Assembly (NCBI GenBank): GCA_950295325.1 | Contig: OX485803.1 | Span: 47,879,554-47,943,553, forward strand | Reading direction: 5' to 3' | Origin: Polytrichum commune | Taxonomy: Eukaryota; Streptophyta; Polytrichopsida; Polytrichales; Polytrichaceae | Length of the DNA stretch: 64,000 bases | Shown: piece by piece, positions 15,799 to 64,000 of the stretch | Layout: every line of letters begins with the position of its first letter | Position numbering within the stretch: position 1 is the stretch's first letter | Made by a program: the position numbers and the translations under genes | The notes under the pieces: generated by a model | Seen by the model: the letters and a program-made list of their open reading frames with translations, nothing else | Database searches by the model: none | Told to the model about the DNA's origin: nothing

Positions 15799-16898
15799 CA
15801 GGCCATAAATTTGACACCCTAGCCAAATTTCCAGGGGACACCCTGCTCCAATTTTTGGGTGTCCTCATAAATTTCTCTTAAAAATGTTTTTTTGTCAAAA
15901 TAGGTACAATTTTGAAAAATATATAATATCATTTCAAATTTTCAATTAAAAATCAAAAAAATCACTACATATCATAACTTGCAATGCAAATCAAACCTAC
16001 AAGCGGCGGCCTTTCATAGCACACCACTTTACCCATACTTGTTCAAAGTCAATGGCCTCTATGGGGATTTTTGCCATTGCAACTCTCATTTGTGCTTCCA
16101 AAGTCTCTAATACCAAACTACACCGTAAAGTAGATTTAATATGATTTTGAGTAGAAAATCCTCTCTCACAAGAAGTTGTACTAGCAGGAATTACAAGAAC
16201 AGCTTGCCACAACTTTGTCATATGAGGATATCTTCCAACATAGTCCAAATTGGAAGAATAAACCATCCAAGCTTGGTGCATTTTAAGACCACCACATGAA
16301 ATATGAAGTGTATCCAAAAAACCTCGAAGCTCTGATTTTAAACCACGCTCATCAAAAAGATTCTCTCCATTAGTGCAGAATTGGTCAATGAAACTCTGAA
16401 GCCATAAACGAGCATTTCGATGAAGAAGTGTCAAGTCTGTTGAAAAACAGACAGGGCTAAATAGCTTAGCTGCATTGAAGAGCTTCAAATCAGGAAATCG
16501 TTGCTGCAATGATTCTATCACCTTAACCACATAGGCCTGTGCAATCACCTTGCACCCATGGAGGGTACCATCACCACCAAACTCACCAAACGTGTGATTT
16601 TTTTCTTCACAAGTCACAGTACGTGTCAATTTCTAGAATGTGCGTGTCAATTGACGTGCATTTTTTTTTTGTGCAAGTTTTTGCGTGTCAAAAAAGAAAA
16701 ACTTGCAAAAACTTTGTCAAACATATACGCTGATAGGCCCTACAAGTACAGGGGACACCCTGAATTTTTTTTGAGTGTAAAAAGGACACCCTTGTAGGAT
16801 TTTTGGGTGTCCTCGGGGACACCCTGTTTGAGATTTGGGTGTCCTAGGACACTCTAGGAAGCAAAATACACCCCCCAGGGTGTCAATTTTATGCCCTG
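15799..16898 (-). mobile_element. hAT DNA transposon, internally reduced, with perfect 8-bp target duplication
   Basis: GAGGAGAC lies immediately on both sides (15791-15798 and 16899-16906), the 8-bp duplication typical of hAT. Termini are short inverted repeats: CAGGCCATAAATTTGACACC on the left against CAGGGCATAAAATTGACACC from the right. GGACACCC words recur near both ends as subterminal repeats, probably transposase-binding sites. The 1100-bp body keeps only a C-terminal piece of transposase (15997-16629), so it is a deletion derivative. The undamaged target duplication suggests a recent insertion. Confidence 0.9.
15997..16629 (-). pseudogene. C-terminal fragment of hAT transposase (ZNF862/DUF4371-like, dimerisation domain)
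   Basis: A 210-residue open frame. Its end matches the hAT C-terminal dimerisation domain: LVIPASTTSCERGFSTQNHI, then IKSTLR and LEAQMRVAM. The N-terminal zinc-finger and most of the RNase H-like catalytic core are absent, because the element around it is only 1.1 kb. It cannot be an active transposase alone, though a dimerisation fragment could in principle act as a dominant regulator. The frame is open with no internal stop, consistent with a recent insertion. Confidence 0.85.
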
Positions 16899-17043
16899 GA
16901 GGAGACATTTGAGCACACTCACCATACAACCTCAAAATTTGTTAAGCCCAAGAGGACTAAAAGCATCCTGCTTCAGATAGAGAGACTTAACTCACACTAA
17001 TTTACAGTCAAGTGACAAAAGATAGAAAAAGAGATGCGCTTGT

Positions 17044-17115
17044 AGGAGGCAAGCGGGGTTGAACCGCTGACCTATCGGACTGCAGCCGATTGCTCTACCA
17101 CTGAGCTATACCTCC
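17044..17115 (-). tRNA. trnC-GCA: tRNA-Cys (GCA), copy 1
   Basis: Cloverleaf read on the minus strand: acceptor GGAGGTA pairs with TGCCTCC, D-arm contains AGCTCAGTGGTAGAGCA, anticodon stem ATCGG/CCGAT encloses loop CTGCAGT with anticodon GCA, and the T-arm contains GGTTCAACCCC. Discriminator is U, as expected for Cys. A T5 Pol III terminator follows about 14 bases downstream. Box A (TAGCTCAGTGG) and box B (GGTTCAACCCC) are intact. Confidence 0.97.
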
Positions 17116-17116
17116 A

Positions 17117-17134
17117 CGTGTCACATGTGACACG
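17117..17134. promoter_or_regulatory. 18-bp perfect palindrome just upstream of tRNA-Cys copy 1
   Basis: CGTGTCACATGTGACACG starts two bases upstream of the tRNA 5' end and embeds CACATGTG, an E-box-like core. Its place in the tRNA 5' flank suggests an upstream element or part of the pre-tRNA leader. Function not shown. The same palindrome lies at 17391-17408. Confidence 0.5.
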
Positions 17135-17317
17135 CACCTGAGCATTAGACCAACTTTCCGCTTCCAGCTTGCTGTTCCGATGTGAAAATAATCAACCATA
17201 CAACCTCAAAATTTGTTAAGCCCAAGAGGACTAAAAGCATCCTGCTTCAGATAGAGAGACTTAACTCACACTAATTTACAGTCAAGTGACAAAAGATAGA
17301 AAAAGAGATGCGCTTGT

Positions 17318-17389
17318 AGGAGGCAAGCGGGGTTGAACCGCTGACCTATCGGACTGCAGCCGATTGCTCTACCACTGAGCTATACCTCC
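17318..17389 (-). tRNA. trnC-GCA: tRNA-Cys (GCA), copy 2
   Basis: Identical to the copy 274 bp away, with intact stems, box A, box B and its own T5 terminator at about 17300-17304. Both copies look functional. Confidence 0.97.
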
Positions 17390-17467
17390 ACGTGTCACAT
17401 GTGACACGCACCTGAGCATTAGACCAACTTTCCGCTTCCAGCTTGCTGTTCCGATGTGAAAATAATC

Positions 17468-47000: not shown

Positions 47001-47534
47001 TGTTTATTACCGCTTGCCACTTACAGAATATGCAAGGGCGATCACATTACAAATTTCCCCTCACTGAGGCAATCACCGAAACGATGGAGAAAAAAAATAA
47101 AAACAATGAACAAACCAAACATAATGTAAATTGCACCTGCGGTCGAGGTTTCTGCTGTAAAACCCCTTCCTCATCGCACTGAAGAACATGATGTGCTCGC
47201 AAGCGGAATTGAGCGAAACCTTCTTCTTCTTCTTGGACTTGGAGGTCCACCCCCCGTCCTCGTCCGATTCGGAGTCCTCACATTCTTCGGAATCCAGCCG
47301 CTCGTCGCTCCAATCTTCCATGGAGTCCATCGAGGTGCGGTCATCCGATTCCGACTCCAATTCCAACACATCCACATCGCTGTCACTGCTCCCCTCGGAG
47401 GGGAGGTACGCCTTGACGAGGTCCAGCAGTCTGTTGCGGCGATCGTCCTCGGTCTCGGCGGGGGAGGCCGCAGGGGCGGGGGCGGCAGCCTCCTCGGCAG
47501 GCGCCATAGAGGCCTCGTCGGCCGCGGTGGCCAT
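38051..47534 (-). CDS. Large multi-exon gene, Ser/Pro-rich protein with a DCD-like segment
   Basis: The minus strand carries a long chain of exons with low-complexity, Ser-, Pro- and Glu-rich products. Exon 1 (47534 to about 47141) starts MATAADEASMAP, with an acidic Ser-Asp stretch and a KSKKKKK cluster that could be a nuclear signal. Well-bounded exons include 42554-43515, 41919-42122, 41451-41582, 41004-41238, 40209-40456, 39387-39836 and 38051-38341; probable ones lie near 46316-46640, 45670-46100, 45010-45210, 44420-44570 and 44060-44150. Exons 41919-42122 and 41451-41582 give GQVICCDNKTLKLYEEMRNF, NIAPGNCALFLFNIDTQELH and GLYKSSS, then KEYLYPL. LFLFN..T.ELHG(I/L)Y is the hallmark of the plant DCD (development and cell death) domain; the LFGLP motif is not obvious, so this is a distant match. 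DCD proteins respond to ER stress and hormones in plants. The exon set could also represent two genes. Confidence 0.55.
46702..46731. repeat. (CAT/CAC)n trinucleotide repeat, intronic
   Basis: About nine CAT/CAC-type units in the intron after exon 1 of the large minus-strand gene. A longer block of the same type lies at 46888-46944. Confidence 0.85.
46888..46944. repeat. Hexamer repeat (CATCGC/CATCAC)n, intronic
   Basis: About nine copies of a CATCAC-type hexamer, starting as CATCGC. Both flanks share words with the block at 46702 (ACCATGCCATC before; CATGGCA/TACCTGGCA after), suggesting the two blocks arose by local duplication. Confidence 0.85.
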
Positions 47535-47730
47535 GGCCGTGGCGAATAGCTATGGCGTCGCGTGTTCTGCTTTCGTTGCGAAATTTCAATACAAACATGA
47601 CAACACATAAGAAGGCGAAGAATGACGAAGTACGACGCAAGCTTTGTGTCGGAGTTAAGGGAACCTCGTTAGTCACAAACGACCCGTTTAGGTACGTATA
47701 TGATTTATAATAGTAAATCACATGCTACTC
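47535..47730. other. Promoter region of the large minus-strand gene
   Basis: Upstream of the minus-strand start at 47534. CG-containing sequence near the start gives way to AT-rich sequence; a MITE cluster starts at about 47731. Confidence 0.4.
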
Positions 47731-48620
47731 TAGGGTCTAAGACCAAAAGAAACTCCTAAATTGAGCGATCTCTTTAATCGAGAGCAAATTTTGGGACTCA
47801 AGGACGTATAAGGAAATGAAGTGGCACTAATGTGGCATCACTTACCTCTCAAATATGGTCGGCTCCAACTCAATGTTGTACTCTCCTAGTTTAAGAAACC
47901 ATTTGTTAAAGCTTGGGTTCAATGTTGAGTGTAGACACCAAGGTCCCTTAAAAGGGTGTTTTTGACCTGGACCTTAATGTAGTGGACTCACTCTAAGTGT
48001 GAACCCTAAGGTTGGGTGTACAATAGGGTCCAAATCCAAAGAAACTCCTAAATCGAGCAATCTTGTTGGTTGAGAGCGAATTTCGGGACCCAAGGACGTA
48101 TAAGAAAATGAAGTGGCACTAATGTGGCACCACTTTTCTCTCAAATCTCATCAGTGTGAACTCCATAGTATGCTATCCTAGTGTACAACCCATCTTGAGT
48201 CTGGAAATAAGGTTCATCATTAAAGGGTATTTTGGACCAAAACCCTAATGTAGACTCACCCTAGTGTGAACCCTAAGGGTGGGTTTTCATTAGGGTCCAA
48301 GATCAAATAAACTCCAAAATCAAGCGATTCTATTGGTTAAGAGAATTTTTTTGAACCCAAGGAGTTTTCACTAGGGCCCAGGTTCAATGTATGAGGAAAG
48401 GAAGTGGCGCAAACGTGGTATTAATTTCCTACCCAATCTTGTCAATTCCAACTCAAGAAAATGCTCCATCTAGTTTGAGGGTGAGTTTGCACTAGGATTC
48501 AAGTCCGATATTTTTGAGCTTCAATACACCTCTAATCATACTCAAGTTTTGGACTCAAAAAAATAATATAAGTAAGTTGGACCCAAACCCTAATATAAAT
48601 GTCTTCAATCCAATATGGAG
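47731..48620. repeat. Three adjacent copies of one MITE family
   Basis: Copies begin near 47731, 48006 and 48273, each with an (A)GGGTYBAARDYCAAA motif, then ACTCC.AAAT.GAGC.ATC and a GAAGTGGCACTAATGTGGCA-type core. Copies 1 and 2 end with ACTCACTCTAAGTGTGAACC or ACTCACCCTAGTGTGAACCC, which also forms the junction with the next copy. Copy 3 is more diverged. Head-to-tail order suggests insertion of copies into the same preferred target or later tandem duplication. A relative lies at about 18570-18849. Confidence 0.72.
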
Positions 48621-50019: not shown

Positions 50020-50325
50020 AAAACGTTGGTTTTGAAATCGAGTTTGGTGAGCCAAGGTAAAAGAATTTCGGCCTTGACGTGTGCCTAATTTTGAGGAGCC
50101 TGGTTTCAAGGTGGGTCCCTCTTTTATTGGGTATAAACTTCCATCCTCAACTCCAATCCAAGACAATTGTTTTGCAAGGCTTCTGATCTCCTTTTCTGAT
50201 CGGAGTTGGAAACGGACAGTTTTAACCAAAGAAAAGAGAGACCAAGCTCCTCAAAGCTAGGCACATAGCAAGGCTAAAATTCTTTTACCTTGGCTCACCA
50301 ACCTTTGTTTCAAAATGTGCGTTTT
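50020..50325. repeat. Fold-back element with arms of about 57 bp
   Basis: TTGGTGAGCCAAGGTAAAAG, followed by AATTTC.GCCTTG and GTGCCTA..TTTGAGGAGC, is mirrored by the reverse complement near 50245-50305. Weaker similarity (TTTTGAAA, AAAACG) extends both arms outward to about 50020 and 50325. No coding capacity and no target duplication found. Confidence 0.78.
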
Positions 50326-50939: not shown

Positions 50940-51435
50940 CTAATTTTTTTTCGCGGCCTTGGCCTTGTTTTTGGCAGCCTCCACGGCTCTGAAAATCTCA
51001 GGCCCGCGGCTATAACCGTTTTTGTTGACGGACCCGGAATACGTGTTGTTATTCCAAATTTCCGGACGCGCTCCCGAATTGTACGGAGTGGTATTGTGAG
51101 TGGAATACGAGTGCGTTTGTGAGAGGGAATGTCTTGCGCTACGGCGGAGGGCCAAACAACGATCGGACTCGGATGATGCGGCCTTGAGGGCATGCCTATC
51201 CAAGGAAGACGTGGAGGAGGGCCGGGCACCGAGAGAGCGGGTAGCCACCTGCGGAACAACGTCATAGGAAAATAAGAATAAGAATGGAGTGTGGAAAATA
51301 ATGAGGGTGGTTTGGGATTGGCGCTCGTAAAGAGAACGGCACGCACACGGAAGACAAGGGAAGCAAAAGCGGGAAAGGGGTTTAGGGTTGAGGAGGGCAC
51401 CTTGGCTTTGGGGATGTCGCGGCCCGCCTTTTCTT
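50940..51435 (-). pseudogene. 3' end of an unidentified minus-strand gene, 5' part missing
   Basis: The last exon (50940-51248) follows a clean acceptor (TTCCGCAG) and encodes VATRSLGARPSSTSSLDRHA..., ending KNKAKAAKKN-stop. One exon upstream, at about 51404-51435, reads GRDIPKAK before a GT donor, and the frames join as AK-VATRS. Immediately 5' of that the sequence changes to the unrelated element block (51436 onward). The simplest reading is that the element inserted into, or replaced, the rest of the gene. The 102-residue tail is basic and Ser-rich with no known domain. Confidence 0.5.
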
Positions 51436-51669
51436 AAAATCTTAAGAAACCTTGTTTTAAGATTAAGAAATAGATTTGAGCGAGGAAAACATAGTAAGTA
51501 GAGTACTTTATTGGTAGATAGTTAGGTAGGCTAGTTAGAATTGAGGAGAAAAACTAAAATCATTAAAGTAGTTAAAAATACCGAATTGAGTTAGTGTTAG
51601 GAATTCCGTTTCGACTCGGAAACCTTAAAGCGGAGCGGACCGCACCGGCGACGGCGGGCCGCAACCATT

Positions 51670-52557
51670 ATGGCCACCCAAACACGGAAGCGGATCGCGG
51701 ATAAGCCGCTAGCCCTCCGCAAGGTGCACGTGGTCACCCCCACTGGTAGAGAGGAGAACGATGAGTTGGAGGCAGACTTGAGGCGCATGGGCTGCCTCGA
51801 GTTATGGAAAAAATCGTGGAGAGTACGCTCTGAGGGGATGGTGAGGGAGTTAGTCACGGGAGAGGTGGACCACGTTTACGCTTCCACCATCCGGGGCCGA
51901 CCGGATAGGTGGAATGCGGAATTGTGGAGTCGGGTTTACGGCTTGGAGCAAGGAGGGGAAGGTATGGCTACTAAGAGAGAGGATTGTACGGGGGATAAAT
52001 TCTCCCAGAGGCTAGACCCCAAGTATGGATATTTTGTGAAAGATTGTAAAGATGAGAGGGAAATGAGGATGTTAGCTTTTCTAGTGCCTATCTTTAGCCC
52101 GGAAAAACCTTATAACATCACTCTTACACTTGCCACCACCTTACTTCTTGCATACTCCGAGAATAAGGTGGTGGATTGGGGGAGCATCATTGGAGAGTTG
52201 GTGCACAAGTTGGCAACCAATACTAAGCGCGGCCTACCTTCCTACATAGGGCCTTTCCTCTTCCACCTTTACGCACATGAAAGCCTACTCACGGACGAAG
52301 AGGACACCCTATGGACATCGCATCAGTTTATGCGGGAGCTCCAAACTACCGACTCGGAGCCGGAGATGGGCCATGAGGATTCGAAGGAGAAAGACGTGGT
52401 GGAGATTAGCGACGAAGAGCGGCCTGCGACCAAGAAACGGAAACTAATATTGGGAAATCGTGCGACGCGGACCAGGTCCGCCACCAAGCCGGTGGGAGAT
52501 GGAACCTCCACCTTGTCTTTGGAGGACAATCCGGTGGACTCCATTATCGATCCGTAA
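51670..52557 (+). CDS. Element-borne open frame, plant-transposon-domain-like
   Basis: 295 codons starting MATQTRKRIADKPLALR. A central stretch (NITLTLATTLLLAYSENKVV, DWGSIIGELVHKL, LPSYIGPFLFHLY) resembles, in layout, the helical plant mobile domain found in many plant repeat-derived proteins. An acidic tail with a KKRK cluster follows and could direct nuclear import. No catalytic motif seen. It is part of the element block at 51436-55190. Confidence 0.5.
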   Translation: MATQTRKRIADKPLALRKVHVVTPTGREENDELEADLRRMGCLELWKKSWRVRSEGMVRELVTGEVDHVYASTIRGRPDRWNAELWSRVYGLEQGGEGMATKREDCTGDKFSQRLDPKYGYFVKDCKDEREMRMLAFLVPIFSPEKPYNITLTLATTLLLAYSENKVVDWGSIIGELVHKLATNTKRGLPSYIGPFLFHLYAHESLLTDEEDTLWTSHQFMRELQTTDSEPEMGHEDSKEKDVVEISDEERPATKKRKLILGNRATRTRSATKPVGDGTSTLSLEDNPVDSIIDP

Positions 52558-53554
52558 CTTGGAGGAAGTACGGTCCCGGATTGTGGACTATGAGCTACAA
52601 ATGCACCAAGTAGGGGAATTGGTGGGCAACCCGCCGCGTGAGGGTTTGGTTGCCGCAATAAAGGAGGCCATCCAAGATCCGCGTTGGCTGCGGGAGTTGG
52701 AGCGGAAAGTGGACCACCTTACTGCGGAAAAGCGGAAGACCGCGGAGCGAGTGCGGAAGTTGGAGGTGGAGCGAGAGAAACTCCTTAAACAGGTAAAGGA
52801 TACCACTCTCACGGTACAAAAGTTGAGTGATATGTTGGAAATCCCGGGGAACGTGTGGTGGAAAGCCAAGATGTTCGACGCGGAATTGAAGAACGCGGGC
52901 CACGTTTCCGGGTCGAAGATGGTTACCTTCATCATGGATCAAAGGAGTAAGATGGACGCGTCCTTGAAAACAATGAAGGCCCTCATTGCTAGTTGCACGG
53001 AGTTGTTTCCCGTGGTAGTTGAGTCATCGGAGGAGAGGGAATCTTCATCCGACTACTCTGACTTGACCCCTCATGACATGGTGGAAATTCAAGGTGCCGC
53101 GGTGGAAGGTGGAAACCAACATGCGGAAGAGGTGGACCAAGTGGAGGACATCACGGCGATCACGGCCCTCCCGGTTTCCACCACTGAGGTGTTAGTTCCC
53201 AAGGCCACCCCAGTTTCCGCCGCGGTTGGTGAGGAAACCTTGGGTGATTGCCACGTGGCCGAGGTCTCAACTCCAACCCTTGCCACGGACTTCCAAGTGG
53301 TTATCCGGGATCCGCCGCCACTTGCCATTCTTGCTCCGGAATTTCCGCCGGACAACCAACTATCCGCCCCACTGGCACCGGACGTTGCGGAAACGGTGGA
53401 CCACGTGGGAGTGAGTTCCGCGCCGAATGCTCACGATGTGCAAGTGGCGCCACCACGTGCTCCTTTTTTGGCAACGGACAGCGCGGACCGCCGCGAGGAG
53501 CGGAAGCAGAATAAGAAGGAAGCCAAGTTGAAGAAGCGGAAGGATAAGGAGTAG
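52460..53554 (+). CDS. Element-borne second open frame, coiled-coil and Pro/Ala-rich
   Basis: 364 codons overlapping the end of the previous frame. Residues about 75-125 (LERKVDHLTAEKRKTAERVR, KLEVEREKLLKQV) form a clear coiled coil. The C-terminal half is Pro/Ala/Val-rich and ends in a Lys/Glu-rich tail (KKEAKLKKRKDKE). No enzymatic motif. How it is translated relative to the first frame is not known. Confidence 0.45.
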   Translation: MRRGPGPPPSRWEMEPPPCLWRTIRWTPLSIRNLEEVRSRIVDYELQMHQVGELVGNPPREGLVAAIKEAIQDPRWLRELERKVDHLTAEKRKTAERVRKLEVEREKLLKQVKDTTLTVQKLSDMLEIPGNVWWKAKMFDAELKNAGHVSGSKMVTFIMDQRSKMDASLKTMKALIASCTELFPVVVESSEERESSSDYSDLTPHDMVEIQGAAVEGGNQHAEEVDQVEDITAITALPVSTTEVLVPKATPVSAAVGEETLGDCHVAEVSTPTLATDFQVVIRDPPPLAILAPEFPPDNQLSAPLAPDVAETVDHVGVSSAPNAHDVQVAPPRAPFLATDSADRREERKQNKKEAKLKKRKDKE

Positions 53555-55194
53555 ATTTTAGTTAGGATTCCATTTTGGTTTGTTTTGGGCAAGTAGTTAG
53601 GTGGCCCCGGGTTGTGCGCCTCGTCATTTTCTTTGTTTAGGTTTTGATCTCTCCATGAGGTGGATTGTCGCCACGTGGCCCGCGATTTCCGGCATGGAAA
53701 CCATGGCATGTGGGTGTTAGTTTGGTTTTTAAAGGGAAAACACTTCGGTGTTTCTCTCATTATTTTGCAATACAAGTGTTCTTTTGTTCAATTCGGACCT
53801 TATGCTTTACTTCACCTTCGGTTTGAGTTGAGTCTTGAGTACATGTGTAATGCAAGTGGTTCCTCTTTTCCGTACTTGAGGTTTCCGAGTTTTCCGCCAT
53901 TCCCTATTATTGTGTAGGTTAGTATTCCGTGATAGGACAGGGGGTAAATAATACCCGGAGGTGCGTGTGGTTAAAACGCCCCTGTGTGAGCAGGTGATGG
54001 GCGGAGGAATCTTAAACGCGGAAAGGAAGAAAGGATTGGCCGAGCAAGGGGAAAGAACCCCACCGTGGGGTTGTTGGACAAGGGAAGTTCCACACACACG
54101 GTAGGTTCTTCCCCACTTACTCCGTCCAACTAGAGACCGACAATAAGCAGCAGTGGATAGACCTGTCCAATAGTAGGGGGAGAGTTCTGGTTTATGCCTT
54201 CCGCTTGCTGTGACCTGGAGGTGGATCACACCGATCAGCAGTAACGGAATGGTCTAGAACACTCATGCACCTGCCGCGACTGGCGTTTGGTTCCCACCGC
54301 GGATGGTAGGCGTGGTAGCCCCATCCCTATGTTAGCCCCGCCGTCACGAAAATCAACAAACCTTAGGTCCTATCTTGTGTGACCTGTGGAACAGCACAAG
54401 CTACCCATTGTGAGGATAGGAGCGAAGATGTTGTGTTTCCACCTTTCTCGAGGGAGGATTCGGTTTCCGTGTGTGGTATAGTGGAAACTGTGCCATCACG
54501 GAAAACGGATCAGGCTGGTTTTGTAGACCCAAAACTTCCTCCACCTTTCTCCCCGTCAAAGGGGGGTGGCACGCGTCGGATATTTGAGCGGGACACCTTC
54601 CCGAGGGAGGGCTGCCCCCATCGAAACACTAGTCTAAGGGAGTAGTAGTTAGAAAGAGGAAGTGGAGATAGGGAGACAACCCTAAGAAATCAACTCAAAG
54701 GGTGAAATCCTCATAAACAACTACCAAGTCTCTCTGAGCATTCTAGCCTAAAACACTAGAATTATGGTCTTTGTGACACGGTCGAAAATCTAGTGGATAG
54801 TGGAAATACAGGTCATATCCGCTACCTCTATTGTGGAAACCTTATCCCGGAAGTCATGACCCGTAATAAGGAATCTTAGAATGGAGTGTATATAGTTGTT
54901 ATACTATGGATTCGGGACGCTGAGTCTATTGTTGTTACTATTCTAGGGTGGGAGCTTGTCCATACTTTGTGTTGTGTTCCCTACCTCGGTCCACTACCGG
55001 GAAGGCGGAAATTTCCGTGCTATAATTCCCGTAATATCCCGGATTTCTTAATCCGATTTGTGTTAACTTAGTTTCTAGTGTTTCTTGTGTGTGTGTGTGA
55101 GTGAAAGTTTTTCCCCCCTCTGTATTGTGAACGACCGCAGGTTCTTCGTGGGAACGAACTCGGCGCGGTTTTGACATTTTACGCATTAATTAGG

Positions 55195-55845
55195 TTAATT
55201 AACTGAATACGTTACCACCGTGCTACGACAGGGGACGTCCATGCCGGGGACGGTGGGCACGAGGGGGGCGTCGACGGGAGCAAGCAGAGCCGATCGCACT
55301 ATGGCAGTGTTGAATAACGAGTCGGATTCGAGGCGCGGAGGGCCGACCGTGGTGGAGCATGTTGGTGGGGGAGGAACGGAGTCGTCGCGGGAGGTGTGGC
55401 ACGGGGGGCCCTCCATGCGGAGACGCCGGCTGGGCCCACGACGAGCAATGGTTTCGTCCCTCGAGGGCGAAAGGTGTCCCAAACGAACGAGCATCCATTT
55501 CTCCTTGGAGAGGGGGGAGGGCGATGGGGCGTACGCGCGGGGGACAAGTGCTGGGGGCGGGCTATTGACGACGCCGTCGTCGCGGGAGTAATCCACGGCC
55601 GAGGCCGCGTCGACCGCCGAAAAATGGTAGAGGGATGGCATTTGGAAGTCCGTGACGTCGCGGGAAAGGGAGGCAGGGGGCGAGAGGGGACGGGAAGGGC
55701 CGTCGACTACAGGGGCGTCGCATATGGGGGCAAACTATGGGCAAGAACAAGAACAAGAACAATCACAACAACAAAAGACATCCAAAAACGGAGCAAGCAC
55801 TAAATATGTGAACCACATGATAACAAGCAAAGACATGGAGGAATT
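55195..55845. other. GC-rich non-coding block 3' of the palindrome-marked gene
   Basis: Very GC-rich, with repeated CGTCGCGGGA(G) words (about 55383, 55575, 55660) and an AAGAAC repeat at 55742-55769. Several frames are open on both strands because of composition; none is convincing. It may be the 3' flank or terminal region of the element-like locus on its right. Confidence 0.45.
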
Positions 55846-56613
55846 TCAAATCAATTTATTGAGTTTGGCGAGCCTCATGATGCTCTTATATACATTATCG
55901 CGGGGGCTTAGCGCCGCATTGCCGAAGGGGTTGGACCTAACAAATAATGGGATGCTACCGGCGTGGAGCACGAGCCTTCTAAGGTAGAGGGCTAGCCTAT
56001 CGACCAAAAATGTGTCTTGCCTATCGCCGGTCCAAGTGTCCGGGAAGATGACGTTGCCCAGGGGGTTCAAGACGCTCTTGGTGGGGCTGTCGTCGATGAG
56101 GACGGTGTTCTCAGGAGTCGGCCACCACCCATGGGGCATCCCCTGCAGACGGGGGACGCCTTGCCAGAGTCTTGAACGGAGGACCTTCAGGAATTGTTGT
56201 CCTCCGCCTCGACCGCCAAACTTGGGCACCGGTTGACCCTTCTTGTCGAGCAGCTCGTCGCATTCCTCTCGGCCGAGGACGAGGCAAGGGCTCGGGAGAT
56301 CACGGAACAAGAAGTCGACGATGGGCTCCGTGTTCTCCATGACCATGGAGCTCCACACAACGACGTGGGCGAACTTGACCACCTCGCGAAGGAAGTCCCG
56401 CAGGCCGGGACGGGCGTGGACAGCCTTGCGGTTTATGAGGGTGTCGAGCTCGCCGTCATAGTCCCTTTCGTCGGGGTGACGGAAGGGACGCGTGGGAACC
56501 CTGGGGATGTGTTGGGTGTGACACAACACCCCGTTGAGATAAAAAACGAGGAAAGGTTTGTTCCGGGTTCGAGGTCCACTGGTCAAGGGGTTGCGACCTA
56601 TCTCCGGGGGGTC
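55846..56613 (-). other. FCP1/NLI-interacting-factor-like HAD domain, nucleophile lost
   Basis: Compared with the plant family whose first motif is LDLNG, this exon has VFYLNGVL, motif II VVVWSSM, and motif III/IV ENTVLIDDSPTK followed by SVLNPLGNVIFPDTW. The first Asp of DxD, the phospho-acceptor, is Tyr. Phosphatase activity is therefore unlikely; binding of phospho-Ser/Thr substrates remains possible. The domain looks captured from a host gene. Confidence 0.75.
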
Positions 56614-59600
56614 CTGTGATGAACAACGCGACTAGTTTAATTCTATGATCCAATAATGAATTTTTTGCGTTGAAAATAAAAGACGATGCATTATGGGAAA
56701 AGAGGAGGAAGTAAGGAGGGTGCAAGGAAAATGTGCACAAGGGCACACTTGCGAACGACCGTTCGTGAATGAAGGCTGCGGGGCGGTGCGCATCATTTAC
56801 GAACGCTCGTTCGTGAGCGCGGATGCACATACATATACGAACACTCGTTCGTGAAGGAGGTCGAGACGGGGTCGCACATTTTTACGAACGAGCGTTCGTG
56901 AGACAGGTGAGTCAGCAAAGAATGCAAAGACGCGGAAGAACATAGACAACACAAGATGCGAGAATATGCAATAAGTTGAGGGGATGCGAGCAGAGATTGT
57001 CTGCTCATATATTAATTCGGTGAATATGTACAATTGTCTCGCGTGATAATCTATCACAGTTTCCTAAGGAAAAAATGCAGTGTCCTACAAAATTGATCGG
57101 CCTAAGGAATCACGTAGAAAAAGGCTCGCGCGGGCAACGTGATGTCGATGGAGTTGAAGCGCCAAGAACACAATGCAGGGGTTAGTGATGTTACGAATGT
57201 GCGTTCGTAAAACATTTGGCATTCTCAGAGATGAGTTACCTTTTTTATTAACGAACGCGCGTTCGTAATATCCATTGGGGCAGCAGCCTCTGCTTCCATG
57301 ACCTCCGCTGGACGCTCCTCCTGAGACGACTGGGTTTGTTGGATGAGCTCCACGTCGTTGTCGTCCCCGCCCAGGTCGAGTCTCTCCATGGGGACATCCT
57401 CCATGTGCGGGGATGGATGTCGTCCCTGGTCAGGGCTCTCCACGTCCATCCCACGTGGACCTGCCGCGTCATTGGGGCTCCCCTGCGTTTCCTCCACAAT
57501 GACCATGTCAGTGTGTTGCGCAGTGTCATCGCCCCGCCTATCTACAACCCTTGGGACGACGGTGAAAGAGGCCGTGTCCGTGTCTGTGGGCAGTCCTACC
57601 CTTGAAGGGGGAGGGGTGAGGACTGCCAGACCTGAAGATTCACGAACGCGCATTCGTAAATCTTCGTCCTCCCTTAGCGCCGCCGTGATTGCATCATGGG
57701 AGGTTGAGGCAGTCGCTGTCACCTCCGGGGACAATGGACTTCCCGCCGGCGTTGGGTGTGGCGTTGTTTGGTGGGAAAGCCCTCCTTTGGTACATGACTG
57801 GAGGTGGGGGCTGTGAGGGGTATCCTCCAAGGGGGAAGGGGTAAGGTTGCTGGACTGGCGCAGAGAAGCTCTGCATGTTTCTGAGCATCTCGAAGATGGC
57901 GTCGGTTTTGGCAGCGGAATCCCTCACCTGCTCCTGCATCCTGGCCAGATGTTTGGCGCTCTCCTCCTGGGCTGCAGCCATCTCCTCCTTCATCTTCGCC
58001 TCAAGCTTGGCGTTGAGCTCGGCGACGGTGAGCGCCTCCTCTTTCACCTGCTTGTTCTCGTTGTAGTCCACCCCAAGCTCGGCCATGATGTCCATGTCCC
58101 CCTCGTCCTCGTCCGAGACCTCGATGATTGCTCCCGGCGGCAACTCCACATAGGGAGTACGTCTTCTTCATCCTCCTCCTCGTATTGCGGAAGAGGTCCA
58201 AAGATGGACACGAGCGTTGGTCGAGGATGTCCAGGGTTTCCATCTTCGGAACCACGGCGGGCCTTGGAGACTGTGACGTCGAGCATCCGCCTGGCGTTCC
58301 GAAAGGCTCCGCAGGAGACGTTCTCGCGGGGAGGACGTCTAGGGTTATCCCCGCGGACGACCCGGTATAACCACCCGGGGTCCCTTGAGGGTCGGGAAGA
58401 TCTGTCGTTGGCGGCAAGATCCGAAGCGGGGGTATGTCGAAGGACTGCAGAATGGCGTCCACGTTGGCGGAGGGGGCGGGCTCGTCGTCCTCTGAATCGT
58501 GGACTGGTATGCCCTCGTCGGCGGGCATACTGAATTCCATCCTGGGGACAGAGATGTCCCTGAGGTCCATCGTCGACGCCTTCGCACGGTGGATCTTGAA
58601 ATCTTCTTCCTTAACAGCGTCAATGAATGTGTTGACTACGAGACCCATCATCTGTGAAAAGAGAGCAATAAGGTCAGAAAATATGAACGCACGTTCGTAA
58701 ACATCAAAGCGTGGCATGCAATGAGTTTTCAAGCATTACATTAAGAAGGGGATTATGTTTATGAACGAGCATTCGTAAACATGAATGCGTCACATGCAAC
58801 GACTGTGAAGCAATACTTTGAGAAGTTGGTTAAATTTACGAACGAGCGTTCGTAAATGGAGTATGGACAACTTACCATGGCTGCATACATGAATTTGGAG
58901 CCTCCACATACGTTGTACACCGTCTCTCCACTTATAACCAGACTCTGCAATACAGAGACGTAGAACTCCATCCTGAGTTCCAGGGCGGGGAAGACGGTGT
59001 AGAGGGTCTCTTGCAGCAGATCCTTGGGAGGGGGATGCGGGATGCTGTAGATTTTCTTGAACGTGTTGTTCGCCTTGATAGGCGGTCGCCCATCCCTAAG
59101 CTCATTGTACGTCAAGAAAATCAGGCTGACCGCTCCCACCTGCTTGTTGCCCCTGGCCTCGTTGATGGCCACGATCCCCTCCGTCTTCGCTGGCAGGTAC
59201 GTGTTGTGGAAGATGTTGTACTCGAATTTGATCTTCTGCTCGTACAGCTCTGTGACGACCGACAACTTCTCCCGTTCGACTATCCACAGCCAAACGTGAG
59301 GCTCCCTCATGGCCGGCAATTTGTACTCCATGAATTTGGCCATGAAGGGGTTGTAGAAGGGAATGTCCTTCCCCCCCTGCCTTGACGCACCCAGGATCCC
59401 CTTGAAATCGATCAGGGCAAATGGGCAACCCCGTCGATCCTCCCTCACCTCGGCCATGCTAATGGTGCCGTCCCACTTGGAAAATGTGACCCTCTCCACG
59501 CCGGAGGTCATCACGCAAAACCTTGCCACTCCTTCGAATGTGGCGCTCCTCTTCCTCTCCAAAAATTTTATGTACAGCATTACCTCATGGGGATCCGTGT

Positions 59601-61614
59601 CGGTTTTCTTAGTCCTTTTGTTCCCCTTCAACTTCAAAACCGAGGCGTGCTCCTTGACCAGACTGCGCATGGAGGCTCCGTTGATGTTGTAGTCGACCTT
59701 TAACAGTTGCCATTGCGGCCAGTTGATGTCGCCATCGACTTCAAAGATTTTGTACTCTGGTACGAGTACGCTCAATTCTCTCATGGCAGCAGTCTTCAGC
59801 TTCCGGTGGTCACACCATTCCTTGAAAGAGTACGTGCCGGGCTTGTGCTTTGGCCTCCTCAAAAAGATGTTGGGATAGGGAAGGTTTTTTCCCACGGTGT
59901 TCCCAAGAACATGAATCGCACACCTCTTTAGCTCTAACTCCGTCAATCCCTGGAGGTGTCTGAAGAACTCCCTTAGTAGTGGGGGCGCCTCACCAATTTT
60001 TTCCGTGCTGTACTTCTCCTCGGTGTCGGGATTGACCAAATCGCCCGAGCTGTGTGCATCAAAAAACTGGGTCCACAAGTCCCATGTGTCCCTGTTGCAG
60101 CAGATCAGTCTGAGCTCACCCTTCAGCTCAAGCACAGACTTGGTGGTGGTGGACTTCATATCGATGGAAGAGAACTTGTCTACCATCGCGTCGCAAAATG
60201 CCTGCACAAAACAAGATGTCAATGTTGCACATAATACGAACGCACGTTCGTAAATTGAGTATGTAATTGAAGTTTTCATGAATCTAACACTTTACGAACG
60301 TTCGTTGGTAAACTCACCTTCCATTGGGGAGACTGGTTCTTGGCGTTCTCCCTCTCCTTTGGTGGGCATCCGTGTGCCACCCAGACGTCTCTCACAGCCA
60401 CTATGTTAGCCGCCCACGAAGCCTCGAACGCCTTGATTTTGTTCCCCGAGTTCAGGAAGGTTGAAATCTTGCGTAGTTTGTCCCAATCGTCCGACCAGAC
60501 CAATAACGCCTTCCAGTACCGCAGGTCAGCCTTCAGTTCGTGCTGGAAGTTGTCGTCCTTGAGGATCTGTTGCGACGCCTCCAAGCTGTGTTGACCATCT
60601 ATAATCCAGAATTCTCCATTATGGATTCGCGGCCAATCCATCTCTGTCGGTCGGGATGTCAGCCCCTTGGGCATGACGCAGACGGTCTGCCTATCCCATT
60701 TGACGTTATTCATGAGGTTGTTGATCTGCCACTTCACCCCACCGCTCTCGCGAGACCTTACCACCCACTTGTTGGAGGACTTTTCGCACTTGAAGCAGTC
60801 CACGTTGAACGTGAAGTGGCGCCCCATGGGCCAGCAATCCTTCGAGTAATTATTGAAGTCTCGTAGGATCTTCGTTGCCTTTACTGCATCTGGATTCTCA
60901 CCCTTCTTTAAAGGGGTTGGCATCACGGGAGGAGAGCTCACCTCAGCGCCCTCTGTTACCCCAGACCTCTCCATTTCGTCCCGGGACCTCTTCGATGGCG
61001 TGGAATGTCGGTTGGGACCCTCCGTCACCCTGCTCGCGGAAGGCACCGGCCTGGGTGCACTTCTCGATCCTCATGCCCCGGATGCGGATGATTTTCGTGG
61101 GCTCTTCTTCTTCTTGTTGGCTTCGGTGACCGCGCTATTGTACTTGGAGATATTCAATGAGAGCGCGGCCAACTTCCTTGCTGTCCAGTACGAGCTCAGG
61201 GCGTACTTCGTGAAGAGGTCCTTGAGGAAGTGTTTGGCATCAACCACTACGTTATTTTCTGCGTATGTGTAAGAGAAACTATGTCTCCTGTACTCTAACA
61301 AGAGGTTAATGTGATCCTTCTTATTTTTCATGTCTAAAATCACATAATCTCCTTGTGCCTCAATTGATTCTACTTCCCAAGTCTTCATCTGCACCCATTT
61401 CTCTGGCTGGTCCGGGGTCGTTTCCAGCTCGTAGGTAAAACGAAGACAGAAAAGACCGTCTGATGTCTTCTCTGGCAATGCCGTCCATTCCCCAATGAAA
61501 TCCTCTTTGGGGACATAATTATCGTTTCCGTTGGGGTTGGACATTGACGCTAGTAGCTGATCTATCTGCACTGCGAACATCTCAATGGCGCTTCGATCTG
61601 CTCGGTCTAGCCAT
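55846..61614 (-). CDS. Large multi-domain gene: unknown N-terminus, ParB/DGQHR-like domain, novel region, coiled coil, FCP1-like HAD domain
   Basis: Minus-strand exons 60318-61614, 58876-60201, 57240-58651 and 55846-56613 are bounded by good signals (AAG|GTGAGT, ATG|GTAAGT, AAG|GTAACT; TGTGCAG, TTTTCACAG, TCATCACAG), and all three introns are phase 0. Exon A carries about 180 unknown residues, then a ParB/Srx-type core: WPRIHNGEFWIIDGQHSLEA and KISTFLNSGNKI. Exon B is 442 unknown residues. Exon C is acidic, with a coiled coil (ELNAKLEAKMKEEMAAAQEE) and a Pro-rich stretch. Exon D is an FCP1/NLI phosphatase domain of the plant LDLNG type: VVVWSSM and NTVLIDDSPTKSVLNP are kept, but the nucleophile motif reads FYLNGV, so the catalytic Asp is absent. 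The reading frame is interrupted in a few places, so this copy may not yield one continuous protein. At least one further 5' exon is required. It could be the coding core of an undescribed mobile element. Confidence 0.6.
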
Positions 61615-62209
61615 CTGCAGAGCACATAAACATTTAGTATTGTGTTTACGAACAAGCATTCGTAATTGACAAGCAAATCATATATACTAATCAATATACG
61701 CTGGCTATGGATACCCATGAGGAGTTTTAATGATGTCTTCGCTGATTTCATTTACGAACGATCGTTCGTAAAGAATGTGGTTGCTAAGGTGTATTTAGCA
61801 CAAGTTTACGAACGTGCGTTCGTATTGTTTCTAAACAAGTCTACGAATTGTCCAGGGTTATCGAATTTCCACGAGGATTGTTCTAATTTCCATGAGTATC
61901 TTCTAAATAGGTGAATTAATACTTTAGTTCTTATTTACGAACGTGCGTTCGTAAATTATGCTACTCGGGAATGCAGACAATTAGCATGAAGGGTTTGGTA
62001 TATTGTTATAGTTTGTGATTACGAACATTCGTTCGTATTTTTGTATGTGTGATTTGATTTGTGGATTTGTCTGATGTACCGGGTATAGACGAATATACGA
62101 ACGTGCGTTCGTAAAAATGGAGGGTGAGGTGTGTATTTACGAACGCACGTTCGTAGATGTTTGTGGGGTAAGGGATGTATTCACGCCACATTTACGAACG
62201 ATCGTTCGT
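56751..62209. repeat. Twenty dispersed copies of a 16-bp dyad, ACGAACG-NN-CGTTCGT
   Basis: Starts (16 bp each): 56751, 56799, 56837, 56884, 57193, 57251, 57642, 58683, 58761, 58838, 60236, 60294, 61648, 61754, 61808, 61937, 62021, 62097, 62139, 62194. Most are extended by T before and A after, giving an 18-20 bp dyad. Arms are conserved; the central two bases vary freely (AC, CT, AG, TG, CG, CA, TT, AA, AT). By place: 5 in the intron 56614-57239, 2 in exon 57240-58651, 3 in the intron 58652-58875, 2 in the intron 60202-60317, 8 upstream of 61614. None is seen in exons 58876-60201 or 60318-61614. Not a tandem array: spacing is 40-1400 bp, with 40-48 bp spacing in the left cluster. A binding site for a dimeric protein fits better than an RNA hairpin because the loop would be only two bases. 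Confidence 0.93.
60318..61071 (-). other. ParB/DGQHR-like domain region
   Basis: This part of the first visible exon holds WIIDGQHSLEASQQI, equivalent to the ParB 'IIDGQHRLEAA' box, preceded by a box-I-like stretch (MPKGLTSRPTEMDWPRIHNG) and followed by a helix with FLNSGNK, the position of the ParB N-x-G/xxK helix. In bacteria this fold serves ParB CTPases, Srx and DGQHR proteins of DNA-modification islands. The usual helix-turn-helix of ParB was not identified. Homology is by motif only. Confidence 0.6.
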
Positions 62210-62220
62210 AAATGTGGTCA
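61615..62220 (-). promoter_or_regulatory. Upstream/5' intron region of the large gene with eight dyads
   Basis: Between the first visible exon and 62220 there are eight ACGAACG-NN-CGTTCGT dyads at 42-130 bp spacing. The acceptor at 61615 (CTCTGCAG) implies at least one more exon upstream, not identified, so this may be a 5' intron or the promoter with a short first exon. Such dyad density next to the gene start suggests regulation or maintenance by a dimeric binder. Confidence 0.5.
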
Positions 62221-62754
62221 TCTAGGATTAGGAAATGGTATATGTATTTATATATATCCATACATATATGTATCCGTATATATATATATATATGTATACG
62301 TGTATATGTTGATATGAATGTTGGGATCTTGCGTTGTTCATGATCCTGCAACTCGTGATCAGAATGATGAAACACAAGTGAAAAATGGAATCAGAACAAA
62401 ATTGCGAGTCAGTGATTGATAATTCAGAATGAAGAGGAAAGTGTTATTCCATACAAAACATGCCATACCTCATAATGCATAAAACAAATCACAAGGAATT
62501 CATCAAACAACAATTTCAGATTGTGAAGGAGCGATTTGTAAAGGAAACATGTACTCACATTGAATTGTTGCACACAAAACCTCCTGCCTTCTACTGTGAA
62601 ATCCAGAAATCCTCACAAATGCACACCAAATTGTCTTTCAAAAGCGTTGAATTCGCTTTCAATTGCAATTTCTTCTACCCTCACTCCTTTCTCACACTCT
62701 CAAGCCTTCACAACTTATATGCAAATCCTACACAAACCCTGATGTACACAACTC

Positions 62755-62945
62755 ACAAGCTTTGAAAACTCAAGCTTTCTGAAACTCTCAAGCTCTCAAG
62801 CTTTCCTACTCTCAAGCTCTCAACCTTTCTAAAACTCTCAACCTCTCAATCTTTCTAAAACTCAAGCTCTCAAGCTTTCTAAAACTCTCCACCTTTCAAG
62901 CTTTCTATAACTCTCAACTTCTCAACCTTTCCTACTCTCAAGGTT
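62755..62945 (+). repeat. Degenerate CTCAAGCTTTC minisatellite
   Basis: About ten imperfect units of an 11-24 bp motif (CTCAAGCTTTCTAAAACT, CTCAACCTTTCTAAAACT). Units alternate CTCAAGCT and CTCAACCT forms. Confidence 0.75.
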
Positions 62946-63136
62946 CTGACAACACAACAAAACATAACATTCACAATAAGGCTCTAAAATTGGCAAGGGC
63001 TTCGCCGCAACTAAGAGTTCCTCTCCTCCTCTGCTCCAAATGACAAATGAGGAGGAGAGAGAGGGGCGCAGGGAGGTAGCCGGTGCCGCTAGGGTTTCCC
63101 GGCGGCGGCCACGTGGCTAGTGGCCACTGGCGAGGG

Positions 63137-63200
63137 CTGGGATGGGGGGAGGGAATGGGCAGGGGATGGGCAGGGGGAGGGGATGGGGATGAGGGGATAC
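63137..63200 (+). repeat. G-rich tract with G-quadruplex potential
   Basis: Runs such as GGGGGGAGGGAATGGGCAGG followed by GGATGGGCAGGGGGAGGGGA give more than four G3+ runs within 50 bases on the plus strand. Confidence 0.7.
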
Positions 63201-64000
63201 CATTGGGACATGGAGGGATGAGGGTTCAGGAAAAATGAAATAGGAAATGGGAGGAGCTTAGTTTAGGGACATAAATTTAACTTTCCGTATCCCCTTAGTA
63301 CCTCGACATATGGATTCCTTGTAAACATATTTTAGAAAAGTATGTTAAGATAATTTGTATTTAACAATTCATGTCATTTAGTAGGTTTTCGATGAAGAAT
63401 CCACCCCCAAGATGCAAATGTCGTTTTCATGAACGAGACATCTTTAAAGTTCTTCAATGGTTCCTCAAATAAATATTACATATATAAATGACTCAATTTG
63501 AATTGTGGAGAGGGGCTATCTGATTCTCCACAAGAGGTGGAGAAAAATTCAATTTTCAATACGCTGTCATTAATTTAATGAGGTGTTAGCTTGAACCACC
63601 CTTAATATGATATTTAGTGTTACATACTCTAAATACAAACGCAAAGTACACTAAATATCACTAACCCTATGAAAGTAACTACTATTCATTGCGAACTCAA
63701 ACACTTAATTTCAACTATAATGGTAATATGTGGATGTCGCATGCACAAATATTGTGTAAGGAAATTAATATGAAAAAAACAATTAACAATAATAAAAACA
63801 TAAAGGACATGGTAGTAGGAAATGTGGTGGCCCATTTAATATGTCCAACACTAATTATCAAAGAATTGAAATTTAGTGTTGACCATGATAGTGTAACAAC
63901 AATATATTATACAATCAAACACTAAATATCATATTTAGTGTAGTGTATTTTAGCCATGTGGTTGCATGTTTTGCTAGTAGTATCAAAGAATTGAAATTTA

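Follow-up and report, generated by a model that had tools for sequence, protein, structure and literature searches.

The question raised by this locus is why a 16-bp dyad, ACGAACGNNCGTTCGT, should recur many times in and around a single minus-strand gene, and what would read it. The locus lies in Polytrichum commune (GenBank assembly GCA_950295325.1, contig OX485803.1, forward-strand positions 47,879,554 to 47,943,553), and this stretch of 64,000 nucleotides is called the window throughout. The dyad cluster is real and well above chance, and it is best explained as a group of protein-binding sites tied to one element-like locus. Our preferred reading, which is tentative and to which we give a probability of roughly 0.45, is that the cluster represents the self-recognition sites of a mobile element, read by a dimeric protein that the element itself encodes.

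When up to 3 mismatches are allowed, ACGAACGNNCGTTCGT matches the window 22 times against 0.82 expected (100 shuffles, the largest of which gave 4). All 20 matches with at most two mismatches (11 are perfect, 7 have one mismatch and 2 have two) are located between 56751 and 62209, and no other match of this quality is present in the 64-kb window, positions 1-50,900 and 62,240-64,000 included. The remaining two, at 55131 and 55483, carry 3 mismatches each and may be chance matches. Markov simulations of the CpG-rich block in which the cluster is embedded (50950-62240, n=200) gave a mean of 0.025 dyads and a maximum of 1. An earlier, sequence-only reading had claimed 20 dyads at 56751-62209 and none elsewhere in the 64 kb, and scans, shuffles and simulations alike bear this out. 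No description of the site was present among the literature matches listed, a search whose coverage leaves out most subscription journals.

Comparison of the copies reveals a full unit of about 22 bp, TTTACGAACGHDCGTTCGTAAA, outside which the flanks are unrelated. Pairwise identity among the 20 copies is 0.73-1.0 in the arms and 0.52-0.81 in the three flanking bases on each side, falls to 0.39 at the next left base and lies at background (0.22-0.32) farther out. An identity edge as sharp as this favours a bound site over copied stretches of DNA. Stacking of the 40 half-sites yields TTTACGAACGH, with T at positions -1, -2 and -3 in 34/40, 33/40 and 29/40 and with at most 0.28 bits of information from -4 outward. 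At the central position adjoining each half-site, only 1 of 40 bases is G (P from 0.00014 at an assumed G frequency of 0.25 to 0.0015 at 0.20). In the four copies at 56751-56899 the right flank is GTGA in place of GTAAA. The TTT/AAA extension and the avoidance of G at the centre, as well as the CpG-transition decay, the tandem-repeat copies and the CpG-rich block described below, were not part of the sequence-only reading.

Perfect copies could also fold as RNA, with a stem and a GNNC loop, and five copies are present in confirmed introns, which would suit hairpins acting in splicing or processing of the transcript. However, 7 of the 140 arm pairs are broken and no position carries a change in both arms, which leaves no indication that a hairpin has been maintained. 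The innermost G and C, which would be free in a tetraloop, are conserved in 37 of 40 half-sites, and the eight copies upstream of the first coding stretch may lack transcription. We consider RNA hairpins very improbable. The conserved arms, the variable centre, the edge at about 22 bp and the lack of compensatory change of the RNA-hairpin type all fit the view, put forward in the sequence-only reading, of a site read by a dimer. The half-sites are spaced as GAAC-N4-GTTC, the arrangement of the bacterial SOS (LexA) box. That box is found in bacterial promoters and no LexA-like family is among the matches obtained here; the likeness is probably a coincidence of dimer geometry.

Each dyad site contains four CpGs. 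The arms of the 20 copies hold 11 mismatches in total, and because nine of these are changes from CpG to TpG or CpA (P 1e-5 to 0.017 for the excess, depending on the transition bias assumed), the sites were probably methylated in the germ line at some past time.

Two local tandem arrays contain dyads, one with a period of 38 bp (56783-56854) and the other with a period of 77 bp (58694-58856). When three units of the 77-bp array are aligned, agreement is 38 of 42 compared positions in the dyad arms and 79 of 152 in the remainder; this comparison uses non-independent pairs and units found through their own arms or dyads. The arms are thus better kept although they hold mutable CpGs, and the direction of the difference points toward constraint on the dyad. 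The same arrays are what might be expected from a functionless repeat, in which a short palindrome was multiplied by local tandem duplication and slippage. However, the flanks of the 20 copies are at background identity, the arms were kept while the rest of the tandem unit diverged, and exons are avoided, which makes such a repeat an improbable explanation of the cluster. The number of mismatches per copy, taken alone, cannot separate selection from recent origin.

Measured from stop to stop, the consecutive reading frames of the gene are 226, 264, 510 and 244 aa long. Two introns with GT-AG borders, 60317-60202 (116 nt) and 58875-58652 (224 nt), keep phase 0. Eight dyads are located upstream of the first coding stretch (61620-62215), two in the 116-nt intron, three in the 224-nt intron, five in a gap (57224-56619) that is either an intron or intergenic, and two inside open reading frames (57251 and 57642). 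The dyad at 61648 falls within a frame open as far as 61751; it is assigned to the upstream group on account of an acceptor-like CAG immediately before the first coding stretch. The sequence-only reading had divided the copies into eight upstream, ten intronic and two exonic; the tally stands, with borders confirmed for two of the three supposed introns. Coordinates of the features are collected in Table 1.

Table 1. Features of the dyad locus, in window positions.
Feature	Positions	Strand	Remarks
CpG-rich block, probably an inserted element	50950-62240		edges approximate; ~11 kb; no terminal repeats found
NLI-interacting-factor (phosphatase-like) reading frame	55849-56631	-	PF03031 E 8.4e-15; TIGR02251 E 5.2e-9, below its cut-off
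Four dyads (56751, 56799, 56837, 56884)	56751-56899		56799 and 56837 in 38-bp tandem array (56783-56854)
Dyad, one CpG transition	57193-57208		gap between reading frames
3' coding stretch, three successive frames	57228-58651	-	open reading frames ending near 58001, 57694 and 57225
Perfect dyad	57251-57266		coding, near 3' end of open reading frame
Dyad, one CpG transition	57642-57657		coding, inside open reading frame
Three dyads (58683, 58761, 58838)	58683-58853		77-bp tandem repeat within 224-nt intron
Exon, 442 aa	58876-60201	-	GT-AG borders, phase 0; no Pfam match
Two dyads (60236, 60294)	60236-60309		within 116-nt intron
Exon, 251 aa	60318-61070	-	contains WIIDGQHSLEAS; DGQHR/ParB-like below threshold
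First identified coding stretch, 182 aa	61074-61619	-	after acceptor-like CAG; ends at in-frame TGA 61071-61073
Eight dyads (61648, 61754, 61808, 61937, 62021, 62097, 62139, 62194)	61648-62209		upstream of the gene's first coding stretch (minus strand)

With all frames counted as coding, coding sequence makes up 4,048 of the 5,459 bp of the interval, whereas 18 of the 20 sites fall in the non-coding 26% and only two in coding sequence (P 3e-9). The well-bounded exon stretches 60318-61619 and 58876-60201 (2,628 bp) hold no dyad while the two adjoining introns hold five (P 2e-5), and the density in the four non-coding compartments of the gene is one dyad per 58, 75, 75 and 121 bp. The avoidance of exons noticed earlier is supported by these counts. 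It is conceivable that a dimeric host transcription factor drives the gene through promoter and intronic enhancer copies of the site: the upstream region has eight copies and the two confirmed introns together have five, and nothing is unusual about a palindrome with two central bases as a site for a dimer. However, 20 near-perfect copies at one locus exceed what is usual for promoters, and the rest of the window, which includes a protein kinase gene, has none. Literature found with the motif letters (among the matches listed, several on lox sites and the rest unrelated titles) is neutral on a known host factor. Regulation by the host is in our view unlikely, though it deserves to be kept in mind.

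GC content is higher at the third than at the second codon position in each of the seven coding stretches analysed. The two changes of frame within 57228-58651 are either frameshifts or unrecognised introns, and the NLI-interacting-factor frame, which lies beyond the last dyads, is either a separate gene or the last exon. That frame aside, none of the Pfam or NCBIfam matches in the searched frames attains the curated cut-off of its model. The NCBIfam DGQHR model touches WIIDGQHSLEAS in the 251-aa exon (E 0.27, 10.9 bits vs a cut-off of 58.85), a stretch which we take to be typical of ParB-like proteins; Pfam gives nothing there. A model of unknown function, phrog_21482, matches the first coding stretch (E 8.8e-4) and a lipase-chaperone model matches a coiled-coil-like frame (E 7.1e-4, 18.8 bits vs a cut-off of 285), and both are taken for matches by chance or composition. 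PADLOC, applied to three frames, yielded no match. Searches of the PDB gave nothing for one exon and, for the other, only FAIM at E 0.072 and 0.93. Structure predictions of two exon products, made without an alignment, are too poor to use (mean predicted local distance difference test scores of 37.9 and 34.3).

A resemblance to N4/N6 DNA methyltransferases of the type with the DPPY motif first was seen by eye in the 442-aa exon and the next one, with ALIDFKG in the place of DPPY followed by GETVYNVCGGSKFMYAAMMMG, 165 residues apart. It failed the tests applied and is retained as a lead only. The test set comprised 25 methyltransferases, E. coli yhdJ and IMG/VR relatives (25 of 51 loci). No hmmsearch match was obtained with this set, Pfam had no match in the spliced 723 aa, and the PDB offered only two matches, at E 2.6 and 4.3, both of them entries resembling vitamin K epoxide reductase. 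Alignment with hhalign (24 of the 25 used) chose the segment picked by eye at P 0.55, but a global-mode run settled on a different stretch (P 0.82). A profile of motif I was built from 13 of the 25 methyltransferases. At width 36 its best match lay one residue off the segment, with a score that 676 of 1,500 shuffles equalled; at widths 22 and 14 it favoured other places, with scores that 479 and 385 of 1,500 shuffles equalled.

Searches for relatives used short peptide patterns and reach close relatives only. Within this reach, viral_contigs held no relatives of 58876-60204, 60318-61070, the 69-aa DGQHS stretch, the NLI-interacting-factor frame or the plus-strand frame 51601-52554, and phages held no relative of the spliced 723 aa, which takes in the start of 57228-58651. 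One match in genome_contigs, over QQILKDDNF, falls in an unrelated Bacteroidetes protein and is read as chance. At the DNA level, the 18-mer TACGAACGNNCGTTCGTA is found in seven viral_contigs stretches; with up to 2 mismatches, one locus has two sites and six have one, so no dyad cluster is present there. A PF01555 search in two of these seven records gave nothing.

The surroundings of the gene differ from the rest of the window in their CpG content. The observed/expected ratio is 0.49 in the first 50 kb (GC 0.41), about 0.9 from about 50.95 to 62.24 kb and 0.44 from 62.24 kb onward. The block is probably an inserted element in which CpGs are still retained. A smaller CpG-rich stretch (ratio about 1.0) is located at 47001-48000 amid CpG-poor DNA, so CpG content alone is no proof of insertion. 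The dyads occupy one end of the block, the last of them ending about 30 bp before its approximate right edge.

The sites, the limits of each unit, the preference for non-coding DNA, the CpG decay and the CpG-rich block are observed, and together they suggest a scheme in which we infer the mobility of the block, the role of the gene's own product as reader and the consequence of binding. In this scheme TTTACGAACGHDCGTTCGTAAA would be bound, as a dimer, by a protein of the element, most likely the product of the minus-strand gene that bears the dyads. The many non-coding copies would allow it to find and coat its own element, and the outcome of binding may be control of the chromatin or methylation state of the element, either as anti-silencing or as self-marking. 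We propose this kind of outcome because each site carries four CpGs and the decay of the sites points to past methylation.

Several results weigh against this scheme. No DNA-binding domain was found above threshold in the gene frames with Pfam or NCBIfam, and this copy of the gene may be broken or dead, because it has an in-frame stop and changes of frame. Self-comparison revealed no inverted repeat that joins the block edges, which are approximate, and the exact 10-12-base words common to the edge regions are scattered, none being read as a terminal repeat or a target-site duplication. No transposase family was found in the 18 block frames searched (66 frames of at least 80 aa are present in 50-64 kb). 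As neither a transposase nor an edge-joining terminal inverted repeat is seen, mobility rests on CpG content. The half of the block at 50950-56618 lacks dyads with up to 2 mismatches, although the two matches with 3 mismatches fall within it. The block may therefore be made up of two elements, or the sites may serve a single gene. To these is added the dependence between pairs in the 77-bp comparison noted above.

Part of the same evidence bears on whether the dyads are transposition sites, at which a TNPA-like accessory protein or a transposase would bind and pair the element ends in the manner of CACTA (Spm/En) elements. Eight copies are crowded into 596 bp and reach to within about 30 bp of the approximate right edge, and passages of PMC2613891 describe TNPA of Spm/En as recognising subterminal repeats, which vary between CACTA elements. 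However, the dyad-free half of the block, the copies inside internal introns and the lack of an inverted repeat joining the edges speak against such a role, which we regard as rather doubtful. The resemblance to CACTA elements (Spm/En, Tgmt*) is that a repeated element-specific motif is read by a TNPA-like protein of the element, and methylation is suggested in those passages to hinder binding of the subterminal repeats (PMC2613891). In contrast to CACTA repeats, which sit near the element ends, the dyads are present on one side of the block and in internal introns, if the block edges are the element ends. The parallel is disfavoured because of this one-sided and intronic distribution, and ends of the CACTA type, short terminal inverted repeats beginning with CACTA, were not found at the approximate edges.

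VANDAL elements carry a Mutator-like transposase; no transposase family appeared in the 18 frames of the block that were searched, and the element here may be incomplete. According to Hosaka et al. (2017, PMC5735166), VANC21 binds to YAGTATTAY motifs, which are densely packed and often tandemly repeated in the introns and in the intergenic and terminal non-coding DNA of VANDAL21, the element that encodes this protein; loss of methylation at VANDAL21 is attributed to it (PMC5735166 and PMC10398659). The VANC21 and VANC6 systems of Arabidopsis are therein similar to the present locus: many copies of a short motif in the non-coding DNA of an element, local tandem repeats and a link to cytosine methylation, 18 of 20 sites being non-coding here in a locus that we take for an element. 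The differences are in the motif and in the protein. The VANC21 motif has 9 bp in one orientation and no CpG, unlike the dyads of about 22 bp with four CpGs, and VANC proteins carry DUF1985 and DUF287, neither of which was found in the six gene frames (Pfam, E up to 1) or in the spliced 723 aa (E up to 10). For VANC of Arabidopsis, sequence-specific self-recognition of a transposon has already been described (PMC5735166); the present locus would show it with a different motif and without VANC domains.

Another parallel is offered by the 21.5-kb Sola1-1 element of Ectocarpus, a giant DNA transposon whose accessory protein combines ParB-like and DNA methyltransferase parts (passages of PMC12477816). 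Proteins of this ParB-like/methyltransferase kind are suggested there to bind and modify their own transposon, and the passages name no binding site for the Sola1-1 protein. The gene here is similar in being of an accessory type with a possible ParB-like DGQHS stretch; unlike the Sola1-1 protein, its ParB-like match is sub-threshold, no methyltransferase was detected, and the CpG-rich block of about 11 kb is without a recognised transposase or ends. Charophyte retrotransposons are reported to carry cytosine methyltransferases (PMC5890265). It is a speculative and, in our estimate, unlikely extension that the gene encodes a strongly diverged ParB-like accessory protein of a plant or charophyte transposon (possibly ParB with an inactive methyltransferase), for which the dyads would be parS-like address sites that allow coating of the element and sensing or setting of methylation through the CpGs.

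A few other features were observed in the window. In the dyad-free half of the block, two overlapping plus-strand frames (318 and 368 aa) at 51601-53551 gave weak, sub-threshold family rows only; they may represent a gene, either of this element or of a different one. Just left of the block, 50020-50107 and 50238-50325 form an 88-nt inverted repeat (81% complementary) that may be a small foldback element. To the right of the cluster there is an imperfect tandem repeat of the CTCAAGCTTTC type (62769-62931; 26- and 50-bp periods), and 63595-63944 is a MITE-like inverted repeat with 38-nt arms that are 79% complementary. Farther away, the minus strand at 16000-16632 encodes part of a hAT transposase, its C-terminal dimerisation region (E 1.1e-7), and 16921-17467 is a two-copy tandem duplication of 274 bp (100% matches) with two tRNA-Cys genes. 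The best and third-best solved-structure matches of the protein kinase frame are 'Protein kinase family protein' and 'F22L4.1 protein', presumably plant entries.

If the preferred reading is true, the CpG-loaded palindrome would offer a direct test of methylation sensing by its reader, and the locus would provide a site at which to test whether ParB-like proteins of transposons bind the element that encodes them, as PMC12477816 suggests. If the gene is ParB-like, TTTACGAACGHDCGTTCGTAAA would be the first target motif for that class of proteins. Self-recognition at this locus would stand as a second, independent case beside VANC, and would suggest that the strategy has arisen more than once.

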